Part shown: one piece after another, positions 1,778-58,310 of the stretch
Layout of the letters: the number at the start of each line of letters is the position of its first letter
How positions within the stretch are numbered: position 1 is the stretch's first letter
Source: Marine Group I thaumarchaeote SCGC AAA799-D11
Lineage (GTDB): Archaea > Thermoproteota > Nitrososphaeria > Nitrososphaerales > Nitrosopumilaceae
Length of the DNA stretch: 64,000 nt
Direction: 5' to 3'
Assembly: GCA_000746765.1 (NCBI GenBank)
Contig: JOSY01000033.1
Span: 62,001-126,000 of the forward strand
Program-made: the position numbers and the translations under genes
Notes under the pieces: model-generated
What the model saw: only the letters and a program-made list of their open reading frames with translations
The model's database searches: none
What the model was told of the DNA's origin: nothing

Positions 1778-3249
<1,472 letters not shown>

Positions 3250-54257: not shown

Positions 54258-55451
54258 CTAAAGTGCTTGGAACTCCTCGCTCCATTTATGATATGCTCGG
54301 ATCATTTCTGTTGAAACACTTGGTTTTCTTCTTGCCATGATATCTTTGAAATCAGAAGAAGTTAGTTCTCTTGGTTGTACTGGTTCTTCACCTTCTACTG
54401 GCTCATGATAATCAGGAGCATTGAAAATTTCATGTACTGTTTTGATTTGGGCAGCTTGACATACGTCTTTGATGTCACTAGCACTGTATCCATCAAACAA
54501 TTTTGCCAATTCAGTAGGATTGACTTTGTAATCTTTGTTTAGTTTAGCAGTATATTGCTCAAAGAGATTTTCTCTTGCTGCCTGAGTGGGTAAGGACACA
54601 TAGATTCTTTTTTGAAACCTTCTAAGGAAAGGCCAATCAAGACTCCAAGGTTTGTTTGTTGCGCCAATTACATACATCATCAAATCTTTTCCTTTACCAT
54701 TAACACCATCCATCTCAGTTAGGAATTGGTTCTTTGTTCTAACTTCTCCACCAACCTCACTGTTTCTGGAACCTAAAAGGGAATCAACTTCATCTACAAA
54801 TAAAATAACAGGTTTGCCTTCTTTTTCAGCATAACTTCTTGCCATTGCAAATAATTTTGAAACATTCTTTTCTGCTTCACCTAACCATTTACTCATCATA
54901 GATGATGCATCTACATTGATAAAATAACCATCCATCTCATTTGCAGTAGCAGCTGCTAACATTGTTTTACCAGTTCCAGGTGGGCCATAAAGCAACATTC
55001 CTTTTGGCCATCCTAGTGGGAACAAATCAGGTCTTTTAGTTGGATATACAATTGATTCACGTAGTGCGCTTTTAGCATCTTCTAAACCTATGACTTGGTC
55101 CCAAGTTACATCGGGTTTTTCTTTCATGATAAGGTCTTCAAAATCATTTTCTGCCTCTTGTCTTTGAACAGATTTTTTCTGGTCTTCTTCAGAAGCTTTA
55201 GGATCAACTACAGGTTCTACGCCATGGGCTTGTTGTAATGCATTAATTCTATTATGATAAGAGTTACATCTTTCTTTGTAAATTGGATTGAGTTTACTGT
55301 TTGGATATAATTGCAGTAATTTTACCAAAGCATCAATTGCTTGCTGATAGTATGTGATTGCCTGACCGCGTGCCCCTTGGGAGTCAAATTTGATAGCCTC
55401 AGAAGCATATTTGCTAGCAGTATTTTCTAGTTCTTGGGGAGCCATACTCAT
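54258..55451 (-). CDS. cdvC: CdvC, Vps4-like AAA ATPase of cell division
   Basis: A 397-residue protein. The MIT domain is at about 5-85 (SKYASEAIKFDSQGARGQAI and following helices), and the AAA domain follows with Walker A GPPGTGKT (K162), Walker B ILFVDEVDSLLG, and a second-region-of-homology segment NKPWSLDWPFLRRFQKRIYV. CdvC disassembles ESCRT-III polymers in archaeal cytokinesis. It is third in an operon after two helical protein genes (56507 to 55462), ten bases from the second. Confidence 0.95.
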   Translation of the reverse strand: MSMAPQELENTASKYASEAIKFDSQGARGQAITYYQQAIDALVKLLQLYPNSKLNPIYKERCNSYHNRINALQQAHGVEPVVDPKASEEDQKKSVQRQEAENDFEDLIMKEKPDVTWDQVIGLEDAKSALRESIVYPTKRPDLFPLGWPKGMLLYGPPGTGKTMLAAATANEMDGYFINVDASSMMSKWLGEAEKNVSKLFAMARSYAEKEGKPVILFVDEVDSLLGSRNSEVGGEVRTKNQFLTEMDGVNGKGKDLMMYVIGATNKPWSLDWPFLRRFQKRIYVSLPTQAARENLFEQYTAKLNKDYKVNPTELAKLFDGYSASDIKDVCQAAQIKTVHEIFNAPDYHEPVEGEEPVQPRELTSSDFKDIMARRKPSVSTEMIRAYHKWSEEFQAL

Positions 55452-55461
55452 TTCAAATTAC

Positions 55462-55962
55462 CTACGCAGTATTCTCTTGAGAATTTTGTTGGTATCCTAT
55501 GGTGTTAATCTCTGTAGCAAAATTGGTTAAATTAATTGCACTCGTTTCATGCTCATCATAGTCAGGACCATCATGATATTTCTTCTTAAAATCGGATTTT
55601 TCTGAGATATCCACATGGATTCCCTTTACCTTACTGATGGAGTCTTCAGCAGACATGATCAATTCTGAAATTTCATCATCCAAATCTTCAATAGAGCCTG
55701 CAGCATCTGAAATTACAGAAACAAAATATTTGAGAATTGAACGCATCTCTTTTTTATCAGCATATTTGACAAGCATAAAATCAGCAATTCCAACAATTTT
55801 ATCTAAATCTTGTAACTCTTCTAAGGTTAATTTTTCAATATTTTTATCATCAGAAGACTTTACCTCAGAAATTTTTTTATCAATTTTGGAGGATAGTGAT
55901 TTTATACGCTCAAGGTCCTTTGAAAAATCACGTTTGGTGTTTAACACATTCAAGTATTGCAT
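55462..55962 (-). CDS. Helical protein of the cdvC operon (166 aa)
   Basis: Predicted almost wholly helical: FSKDLERIKSLSSKIDKKIS, LTLEELQDLDKIVGIADFML, YADKKEMRSILKYFVSVIS and IEDLDDEISELIMSAEDSIS, followed by a polar tail (about 120-166). No known family by eye. It may be a second ESCRT-III-type or adaptor protein, but similarity is weaker than for the gene before it. It overlaps that gene by 13 bases and precedes cdvC by ten. Confidence 0.75.
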   Translation of the reverse strand: MQYLNVLNTKRDFSKDLERIKSLSSKIDKKISEVKSSDDKNIEKLTLEELQDLDKIVGIADFMLVKYADKKEMRSILKYFVSVISDAAGSIEDLDDEISELIMSAEDSISKVKGIHVDISEKSDFKKKYHDGPDYDEHETSAINLTNFATEINTIGYQQNSQENTA

Positions 55963-56507
55963 AATTTAAAAAAATCAACATTAGGATACTGCTTACTTAT
56001 TTTAGAGTCCACCATCAATTTTACTTCATCAAGTAGAGTTGATGACTCGATGTTTGATTGACTAAAATCAAAACTAGCATGAGTAAGTGCTGCAGAATCA
56101 AGTACTATACTGCCCAAATGAACAGAAAGTTCGGATAATTTTTGACTGCAATCAGGAACTAATTCATAGAGTTGCGCGCTAATTGTTCTAATTAGTGGAA
56201 TAGATGAAGGTAGGATTTGAGGGATTGATTGAACATTTGTGATGCTTCTAGTCTTCCTTTTTGTCAGAGTCAAAATCTCAAGAGAAAATGCCATGATTCG
56301 TTCAAGTTCAATTGCTTGTAGGTGAGTTTTATCTGATTCATCAAAATCAGAAACTAAATCCTTGTTTGATTGTTTCAAATCATCTCGTTTTTGGGATATG
56401 ACATCTACAATCTCTTCAAGTAGAGATACAGAGTAATCTAATCTAGGAGTTAAAGTGACAGAGTGAGAGATGTTCTCAGTATCTATCTCTACACATTTAA
56501 CCGACAT
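55950..56507 (-). CDS. Divergent ESCRT-III (CdvB/Snf7)-like protein (185 aa)
   Basis: The helix layout resembles CdvB. A long helical hairpin (about 27-90) carries LEEIVDVISQKRDDLKQSNK and QAIELERIMAFSLEILTL. A short loop with proline is followed by IPLIRTISAQLYELVPD (103-119) and KLSELSVHLGSIVLDS (123-138), matching the CdvB pattern in which a helix ending in Pro-acidic is followed by an L-x3-L-x2-I helix. A tail of about 45 residues follows. The pattern match is mine, not a database result. It is the first gene of the cdvC operon, which strengthens the reading. Confidence 0.7.
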   Translation of the reverse strand: MSVKCVEIDTENISHSVTLTPRLDYSVSLLEEIVDVISQKRDDLKQSNKDLVSDFDESDKTHLQAIELERIMAFSLEILTLTKRKTRSITNVQSIPQILPSSIPLIRTISAQLYELVPDCSQKLSELSVHLGSIVLDSAALTHASFDFSQSNIESSTLLDEVKLMVDSKISKQYPNVDFFKLCNT

Positions 56508-56558
56508 GAGATATTCTATTGAGATTTTGTATTTGAGGACGATGTCACAATTAATTTA

Positions 56559-56572
56559 GTAACTACAGTTAC
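56559..56572. promoter_or_regulatory. Inverted repeat between the cdvC operon and a TrmB-type gene
   Basis: GTAAC-TACA-GTTAC, five-base arms in the divergent intergenic region. It could be an operator for the TrmB-like regulator; short arms make chance possible. Confidence 0.3.
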
Positions 56573-56664
56573 ACCTATCTGCAGATACAATTTTGATTTT
56601 TTTTGAGTATTTGTGTAAAGGAATTTAGCTCTCAATTTTACCTAATAACAAATCAACCATAATC

Positions 56665-57825
56665 ATGGTCAATGAGCACGCATTAACAGTTAGCCTTGAA
56701 GAATTTGGTTTAAGCAAGTATGAGGCACAAGCATATGTTGCATTAATTGCCAAAGGCACTATTTCAGCAGGGGAATTGGCATATTATTCAGAAATTCCAA
56801 GAACCAAGATTTATCCAACTTTACTAAAACTTGAAAATAAAAAGCTCGCAATAATTTCAAAAAGCAAACCAATAATGTGTACTGCTATTGCACCCGAAGA
56901 TGCATTTGATGGAATAATTCATGAACAAATTAACAAAGTAAATGCAATGAATACTCTAGTATCCAATCTCAAAAAGGCCAGTGAGGAAAGTAGAAAATCA
57001 AGAGGTTCAGAAGAAAAAAGATATTTTCACATTAGTGCAAACAATGTTCTATCACAACTTCAAACCATGATTGATGGTAGTAAATCATCAATCAAGATCA
57101 TGGCAGATCAGTGGGGTTTTGGGTTATTAGCAGAATGTAAAGAACAACTAGTTTCAGTGTTACGTAGAAGTATAGATGTCAAAGTTCTAGTTTCTCCAAC
57201 ACAAATTTGTTCAGAGTCATATAGAGCAATTCCAGATGGAGTGGAAATTAGAGCATCAGACATTACACAAAACTGCTTCATCTTTGATGAAACAGAATTA
57301 CTAATGGTAAATAACGAGAATGGTAAAGGCGCTATATTTTCATCAACTGACATTCTGGGAGTAAATCAAGAAAGAGTATTTTCACACATATGGAAAAATG
57401 CAACAAAAACAAAAGCACTTGCAGACATGACAAAAACAGAAGCCCAAGAAATTTACAAAATAATCAAGACCGTTAATGAAACAGGATTGACACACATATT
57501 GAATTCAACAATGTTCTCAAAAAAACCAGAATTTGACTTGTTTAAATTATTAGAAAAGAGTGGTGTTTCACTAAAATCAAAATCACTGGATGACATCATT
57601 GAGATAATGGATGCAGTGCTACAGATTACATGTTCAGGACATGTGAATTTTGAGGCAAATACAAAAAACATTACAGTTGAATCAAAGCTAAATAGCGGCC
57701 ATTCTCTTCCATGGGTTTCAATTTTAGATGGATGCCTTCAAAAACAAGGGTACAAAACCAGAACAGTGTTTCAGAATAATTCAAGTAAGGGCGAAAAAGT
57801 CCACATCAAGATAAGTAAAAACTAA
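56665..57825 (+). CDS. TrmB family transcriptional regulator with extra C-terminal domain
   Basis: A 386-residue protein. The TrmB-type winged helix is at about 5-80 (LEEFGLSKYEAQAYVALIA, SEIPRTKIYPTLLKLENK), a helix, then a PLD-like ligand domain (about 110-255, with VSVLRRSIDVKVLVSPTQI and NCFIFDETELLMVNN). The last 100 residues are an additional alpha/beta domain not seen in simple TrmB proteins. TrmB regulators in thaumarchaea control metabolic genes. It is divergent from the cdvC operon. Confidence 0.85.
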   Translation: MVNEHALTVSLEEFGLSKYEAQAYVALIAKGTISAGELAYYSEIPRTKIYPTLLKLENKKLAIISKSKPIMCTAIAPEDAFDGIIHEQINKVNAMNTLVSNLKKASEESRKSRGSEEKRYFHISANNVLSQLQTMIDGSKSSIKIMADQWGFGLLAECKEQLVSVLRRSIDVKVLVSPTQICSESYRAIPDGVEIRASDITQNCFIFDETELLMVNNENGKGAIFSSTDILGVNQERVFSHIWKNATKTKALADMTKTEAQEIYKIIKTVNETGLTHILNSTMFSKKPEFDLFKLLEKSGVSLKSKSLDDIIEIMDAVLQITCSGHVNFEANTKNITVESKLNSGHSLPWVSILDGCLQKQGYKTRTVFQNNSSKGEKVHIKISKN

Positions 57826-57854: not shown

Positions 57855-58310
57855 ATGTCTGAAGAAAAACTCAAAGAATTAGGAATAGAATTACCAGAAG
57901 CCCCAACACCTGCAGGAAATTACATCCCAGTGGTAAAAACAGGAAATTTACTTTTCATTTCAGGACAAATTCCACTTGAAAACGGCAAAGTGGCATACAC
58001 TGGAAAAGTTTCAGATGACAACCTAGAGACTGCTCAAAAATCAGCTAAAAGTTGCGCAATAAACATACTAGCTCAGATCAAAAGAGAAGCAGGAAGTTTG
58101 GACAAAGTTTCAAGAATTATCAGACTTTCAGGATTTGTAAATGCAGTTCCAGAATTTACACAGCATCCAAAAGTGATCAATGCAGCATCAGATTTGATGT
58201 TTGAGATTTTTGGAGAAAAGGGAAAGCATACAAGAATTGCATTAGGAGCAGGAAGTTTACCACTTGATTCGATGACAGAGATTGATGCAATCGTAGAGAT
58301 CTCAGAATAA
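57855..58310 (+). CDS. RidA family deaminase
   Basis: A 151-residue RidA/YjgF-type protein: GNLLFISGQIPLENGKVAY, a helical middle and KHTRIALGAGSLPLDSMTEI with the conserved Arg and acidic residue. RidA proteins hydrolyse reactive enamines from amino-acid metabolism. It lies 29 bases after the TrmB-type gene. Confidence 0.92.
   Translation: MSEEKLKELGIELPEAPTPAGNYIPVVKTGNLLFISGQIPLENGKVAYTGKVSDDNLETAQKSAKSCAINILAQIKREAGSLDKVSRIIRLSGFVNAVPEFTQHPKVINAASDLMFEIFGEKGKHTRIALGAGSLPLDSMTEIDAIVEISE

Follow-up and report, generated by a model that had tools for sequence, protein, structure and literature searches.

The window, a 64,000-nucleotide stretch of the archaeal assembly AAA799-D11, carries cdvC, the archaeal Vps4 gene, preceded by two small genes, designated P0001 and P0002. 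The features of this region are as follows.

54258..55451, minus strand: cdvC, Vps4-type AAA ATPase with MIT, AAA and Vps4_C domains, 397 aa
55462..55962, minus strand: P0002, helical protein of the arCOG08707 type and probably a divergent ESCRT-III paralog, 166 aa, ATG start
55486..55542, minus strand: P0002 codons 141-159, conserved tail motif SAINLTNFATEINTIGYQQ, from motif count and alignment
55950..56507, minus strand: P0001, almost certainly a short CdvB-type ESCRT-III subunit, 185 aa, helices alpha1-alpha5, ATG start
56508..56664, no strand assigned: intergenic region, presumed transcription origin of the three-gene cluster and of the divergent TrmB-like gene, judged from sequence layout
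56665-57825, plus strand: TrmB-like regulator gene, divergent from the cdv cluster
57855-58310: RidA-like gene

Organization of the cdvC cluster

The coordinates of the open reading frames (ORFs) agree with a sequence-only reading of this DNA, which had placed two small genes directly upstream of cdvC: P0001 and P0002 overlap by 13 bases on the same strand, and a 10-base gap separates the end of P0002 from the start of cdvC (55451). The downstream gene was identified as cdvC by its NCBIfam CdvC match (1.4e-151) and by its MIT, AAA and Vps4_C domains. As orthologs of both small ORFs lie beside cdvC in unchanged order across the family, we regard them as real genes. This is the main thaumarchaeal cdv locus, in which a short cdvB, arCOG08707 and cdvC presumably share one transcript. 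The TrmB-like regulator may share the promoter region 56508-56664 with this cluster and may control it.

The same reading had assumed that the classical cdvB and cdvA genes lie elsewhere. The remaining CdvB genes of the genome indeed lie on a different contig (loci L001 and L002); CdvA was not detected in the AAA799-D11 assembly, which is 87% complete, and in relatives it lies away from cdvC.

P0001 is almost certainly a CdvB-type ESCRT-III protein

As a single sequence, P0001 matched NCBIfam CdvB1/B2 (1.3e-6) and CdvB2 in the PDB (2.3e-7), the NCBIfam score being 28 bits against an equivalog cut-off of 350 bits. CdvB1/B2 was matched by all 45 relatives in the alignment, 24 of which also matched CdvB. 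With the family profile, the PDB matches rose to 1e-33 for CdvB2 and 9.5e-14 for CdvB, and hhalign aligned the family with canonical CdvB (99.6%, 6.9e-24). P0001 did not reach the Pfam Snf7 threshold. A Pfam DNA_topoisoIV match of P0001 (0.0017) was under the cut-off and was dismissed as chance.

The AlphaFold model of P0001 was confident (pLDDT 86.7, pTM 0.81), with helices at residues 10-52, 60-87, 92-98/102-113, 118-142 and 148-173, a layout corresponding to the alpha1-alpha2 hairpin, alpha3-alpha4 and alpha5 of the ESCRT-III fold. Foldseek searches with this model ranked CdvB2 filament subunits (4e-6) and closed CdvB (2.2e-4) at the top with a probability of 1.00. The CdvB helix layout and the VPD step read earlier from the sequence were both recovered: VPD occupies residues 117-119, and alpha4 begins at residue 118. 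The proline of this step is nearly invariant among relatives, and P21, R22, L131, P118 and P175 are invariant or nearly invariant positions of the protein. Taken together, the profile matches and the predicted structure make it almost certain that P0001 is a CdvB-type ESCRT-III protein, as the sequence-only reading had proposed.

The C-terminus of P0001 departs from that of canonical CdvB. Its YPNVDF occupies the place of the MIM2 core, which binds the MIT domain of CdvC and was scored as hydrophobic-P-x-hydrophobic-P. This core was found in 25 of 28 canonical CdvB proteins and 13 of 19 main-locus CdvB proteins of other lineages, compared with 1 of 81 P0001 orthologs. Instead, 73 of the 81 orthologs end in [YF]-P-x-hydrophobic-[DEN], the final MIM2 proline having been replaced (YPNVD for FPxLP). 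The search for a C-terminal motif binding the CdvC MIT domain, suggested earlier, therefore showed the standard MIM2 to be missing from P0001. This is compatible with membership in ESCRT-III, since the CdvB3 class likewise lacks MIM2 (PMC8970359). With the motif missing, loading by CdvC, as envisaged in the sequence-only reading, is only a possibility.

P0002 is very probably a divergent ESCRT-III paralog

P0002 gave no usable family match in single-sequence or profile searches of Pfam, NCBIfam and the PDB; scattered weak matches of single relatives (TrpR, EzrA, RinA and others) were taken as chance. When the Nitrosopumilaceae proteins alone were compared with canonical CdvB by hhalign, the result was below significance (1.4%). 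The P0002 model was of low confidence (pLDDT 67), with helices at 13-36, 47-66 and 71-122 followed by a disordered tail, and Foldseek returned no significant match with it, several ESCRT-III entries being among the non-significant ones. Thus, of the Snf7/CdvB profile and structure comparisons proposed earlier for both proteins, those with CdvB succeeded for P0001, whereas P0001 did not reach Pfam Snf7 and P0002 gave no direct match.

The relatives of P0002 at the same position are more informative. At a deeper Nitrososphaeria locus with the order CdvB, middle gene, cdvC (L262), the middle gene matched CdvB1/B2 (4e-11), CdvB (3e-6) and CdvB2 in the PDB (1.1e-7); the middle gene of Nitrosocaldus (L257) matched CdvB at 1.1e-4. 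Stepwise hhalign comparisons connected Nitrosopumilaceae P0002 with its Nitrososphaeraceae relatives (97.1%, 7.5e-11), these with the deep set (95.4%, 1.7e-8), and the deep set with canonical CdvB (97.2%, 3.9e-11), a chain that rests partly on three deep sequences. The pooled P0002 families aligned with canonical CdvB at 91.4-94.5% (9.1e-7 to 8.1e-8), collinearly over alpha1-alpha4 and with the proline before alpha4 coinciding. Profile matches between helical, coiled-coil-like proteins can be spurious; the reversed control and 20 column-shuffled controls for the pooled comparison all remained below 1%. Kinship with CdvA was rejected, as hhalign against ten CdvA proteins gave only 0.1-1.0% (0.3% for the pooled family).

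Because this chain of same-position relatives ends in plain CdvB proteins, P0002 is most likely an ESCRT-III paralog. We consider it very probable that P0002 is a fast-evolving, ESCRT-III-derived protein, stepwise homology being weaker than a direct match. Its ancestor was most likely a second, neighboring CdvB copy, of which P0002 would retain shortened alpha1-alpha4 helices, with the disordered tail in place of alpha5 and MIM2. The second helical partner of the earlier reading is helical in the model, and its probable ESCRT-III descent goes beyond what had been claimed. In P0002, D52, L50 and K66 are invariant or nearly so.

A conserved motif lies in the disordered tail. The pattern [IN]NLT[NKS] was present near the C-terminus in 63 of 83 Nitrosopumilaceae family members, compared with 12 of 1546 other ORFs, and the INLT(N/K) motif is usually followed by a tyrosine. 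It is retained in genera without P0001 beside cdvC (L081-L084), which makes P0001 an improbable partner; that CdvC is the partner is a guess. In a relative with a 3.2-Mb genome (G023), the P0002 homolog (L073, 382-3027, minus strand) has a tail of (AEAPPPA) repeats, about 700 residues long, and ends about 80 bases before cdvC.

Conservation and loss of the pair

Throughout Nitrosopumilaceae, the order P0001-type, P0002-type, cdvC is kept on one strand. In an independent collection, 50 of 80 loci had both types immediately upstream of cdvC, a count made by eye in which several of the other loci are contig ends. In Nitrososphaeraceae the order is the same, an ordinary CdvB being followed by a distant relative of P0002 and then by cdvC, so that P0001 is the positional counterpart of their main-locus CdvB; Nitrosocaldus likewise has CdvB, middle gene and cdvC (L257; L177 by resemblance). 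Conservation of the pair beside cdvC, which the sequence-only reading had left to be checked, thus extends over these three lineages.

Divergence is rapid and parallel in the two proteins: in genera whose CdvC is 72-75% identical to that of the window, P0001 and P0002 retain about 30-40% identity. In the tree, the P0001 orthologs formed a single clade (100/100) on a very long stem, adjoining the Nitrososphaeraceae main-locus CdvB with weak support (85/57), and the P0002-types of Nitrososphaeraceae and the deep set formed one group (98/77). These joins of the P0001 and P0002-type groups are provisional because of the long branches.

P0001 is absent or relocated in several genera. Some genomes that have lost or moved the complete gene retain relics of its last 19-20 codons upstream of P0002, as seen in L081 (about 2167-2226, minus strand) and L101 (2321-2377). 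In L102 (G123:C8), about 3.7 kb separate P0001 from P0002-cdvC, reflecting an insertion or rearrangement. In Nitrosopelagicus (L243, L246, L247), P0001, P0002 and the TrmB-like gene are all absent, so that the RidA-like gene becomes the next neighbor of cdvC. Neither P0001 nor P0002 was found beside cdvC in Nitrosocosmicus. Canonical CdvBs are kept in G019, a genome apparently belonging to Nitrosopelagicus. The absence of the pair beside cdvC in Nitrosopelagicus and Nitrosocosmicus indicates that it can be lost.

Comparison with known systems

The three-gene cluster is known in outline, with a short cdvB and the coiled-coil arCOG08707 upstream of cdvC. Nitrosopumilus maritimus has four CdvB paralogs, and its main-locus cdvB is short and distant from every Sulfolobales cdvB class (PMC5840170); three of four Thaumarchaeota have a CdvB gene near cdvC (PMC8970359). 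We found no essential difference between this fourth, main-locus short CdvB and P0001, which is likewise short, of the CdvB type and encoded at the cdvC locus; P0001 appears to be this protein in another species. The complete relative G086 also has four CdvB-type genes. The coiled-coil protein arCOG08707 is encoded directly upstream of thaumarchaeal cdvC and was described as resembling no known protein, with a hairpin that also occurs in ESCRT-III and in the steadiness box of CdvA (PMC10936438). By position, helical make-up and lineage, we equate P0002 with arCOG08707, the two sharing a coiled-coil or helical hairpin directly upstream of cdvC; whereas arCOG08707 was left there without known relatives, P0002 is traced here to CdvB through intermediates. 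As the locus is the main thaumarchaeal cdv locus with these known genes (PMC5840170, PMC10936438), the earlier idea of an extra, divergent ESCRT-III system was overstated.

P0001 shares the ESCRT-III fold with Sulfolobales CdvB1, CdvB2 and CdvB3 (PDB 9s97-9s99, CdvB2 filament; 9s9j/9s9k, CdvB; PMC12818579) and, like CdvB3, lacks a standard MIM2. It differs from them in scoring far under the equivalog cut-off, in its MIM2 region and in adjoining cdvC. Among eukaryotic proteins, IST1 and IST1-CHMP1B copolymers were among the weaker Foldseek matches and CHMP2A was a sub-threshold match of the family profile (0.76), and P0001 has no sequence-level membership in Vps2, Vps24, Did2 or IST1.

In the open-access papers covered, we found no assignment of arCOG08707 to ESCRT-III, no report of the C-terminal motifs of P0001 and P0002, and no report that the pair is absent beside cdvC in Nitrosopelagicus or Nitrosocosmicus.

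Proposed function and alternatives

The order and strand conserved in three lineages, together with the parallel divergence, suggest that P0001 and P0002 probably act jointly with CdvC. On balance, we favor an explanation in which two products of the main cdv locus, the ESCRT-III protein P0001 and a derived partner, P0002, would work with CdvC. At membrane necks, P0001 would enter ESCRT-III polymers, either by itself or together with canonical CdvBs. P0002, a reduced partner of probable ESCRT-III descent, may attach to this polymer by way of its helical core, regulating P0001 or linking it to CdvC. Some lineages without the pair beside cdvC keep CdvC and canonical CdvB, so the pair would tune the ESCRT process rather than be indispensable to it. 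More tentatively, the INLT tail of P0002 might recruit or regulate CdvC and so make up for the MIM2 proline that P0001 has lost. It is doubtful, if conceivable, that in Nitrosopumilaceae the main-locus CdvB, whose MIM2 tail lacks the final proline, has handed the recruitment of CdvC over to the tail of arCOG08707 as a strongly remodelled second ESCRT-III protein, giving a two-protein ESCRT-III unit directed to its ATPase in trans.

The pair could instead form a separate ESCRT-III polymer with a task other than cytokinesis, such as the production of extracellular vesicles, with CdvC shared. Nitrosopelagicus has lost the pair while its canonical CdvBs apparently stay, the pair was not found beside cdvC in Nitrosocosmicus, and in Sulfolobales ESCRT serves vesicle formation besides division (PMC10936438). 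However, the pair occupies the main cdv locus, where Nitrososphaeraceae have an ordinary MIM2-bearing CdvB, which suggests the same pathway for both and makes a separate polymer rather unlikely. If only P0001 belonged to ESCRT-III, P0002 could be an unrelated helical adaptor, for example a CdvA- or ESCRT-I-like hairpin, that bridges CdvC or the membrane to the polymer. The published lack of relatives of arCOG08707 and the hairpin it shares with ESCRT-III and CdvA (PMC10936438) would fit such an adaptor, as would the missing direct family match and the low-confidence model. The profile comparisons argue otherwise, with CdvA negative (0.1-1%), CdvB reached at 91-97% through positional orthologs, and the alignment with CdvB collinear over alpha1-alpha4, and we regard the adaptor as unlikely.

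Fast divergence, the loss of P0001 more than once, of which L081 and L101 keep short relics, and loss in streamlined genomes might also mark the pair as a decaying remnant of a main-locus CdvB duplication, with little function and drifting to loss. Long reading frames are nevertheless retained in most genera, P21, R22, L131, P118 and P175 of P0001 and D52, L50 and K66 of P0002 are invariant or nearly so, and the C-terminal motifs are conserved; decay is therefore very improbable.

The points without a counterpart in the papers covered are the probable ESCRT-III ancestry of arCOG08707, the replacement of the last MIM2 proline in P0001, the INLT(N/K) motif of P0002 and the absence of the pair beside cdvC in some lineages. 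In N. maritimus, a mid-cell band is formed by CdvA and CdvC and not by the CdvB paralogs examined (PMC5840170, PMC8970359); the GFP fusions were made with the paralogs Nmar_0029, 0061 and 0816, none of which is a gene beside cdvC (PMC3684127). How ammonia-oxidizing archaea divide is unsettled. As proteins that appear to derive from CdvB and whose genes adjoin cdvC, P0001 and P0002 would be direct, testable candidates for the polymer that is missing.
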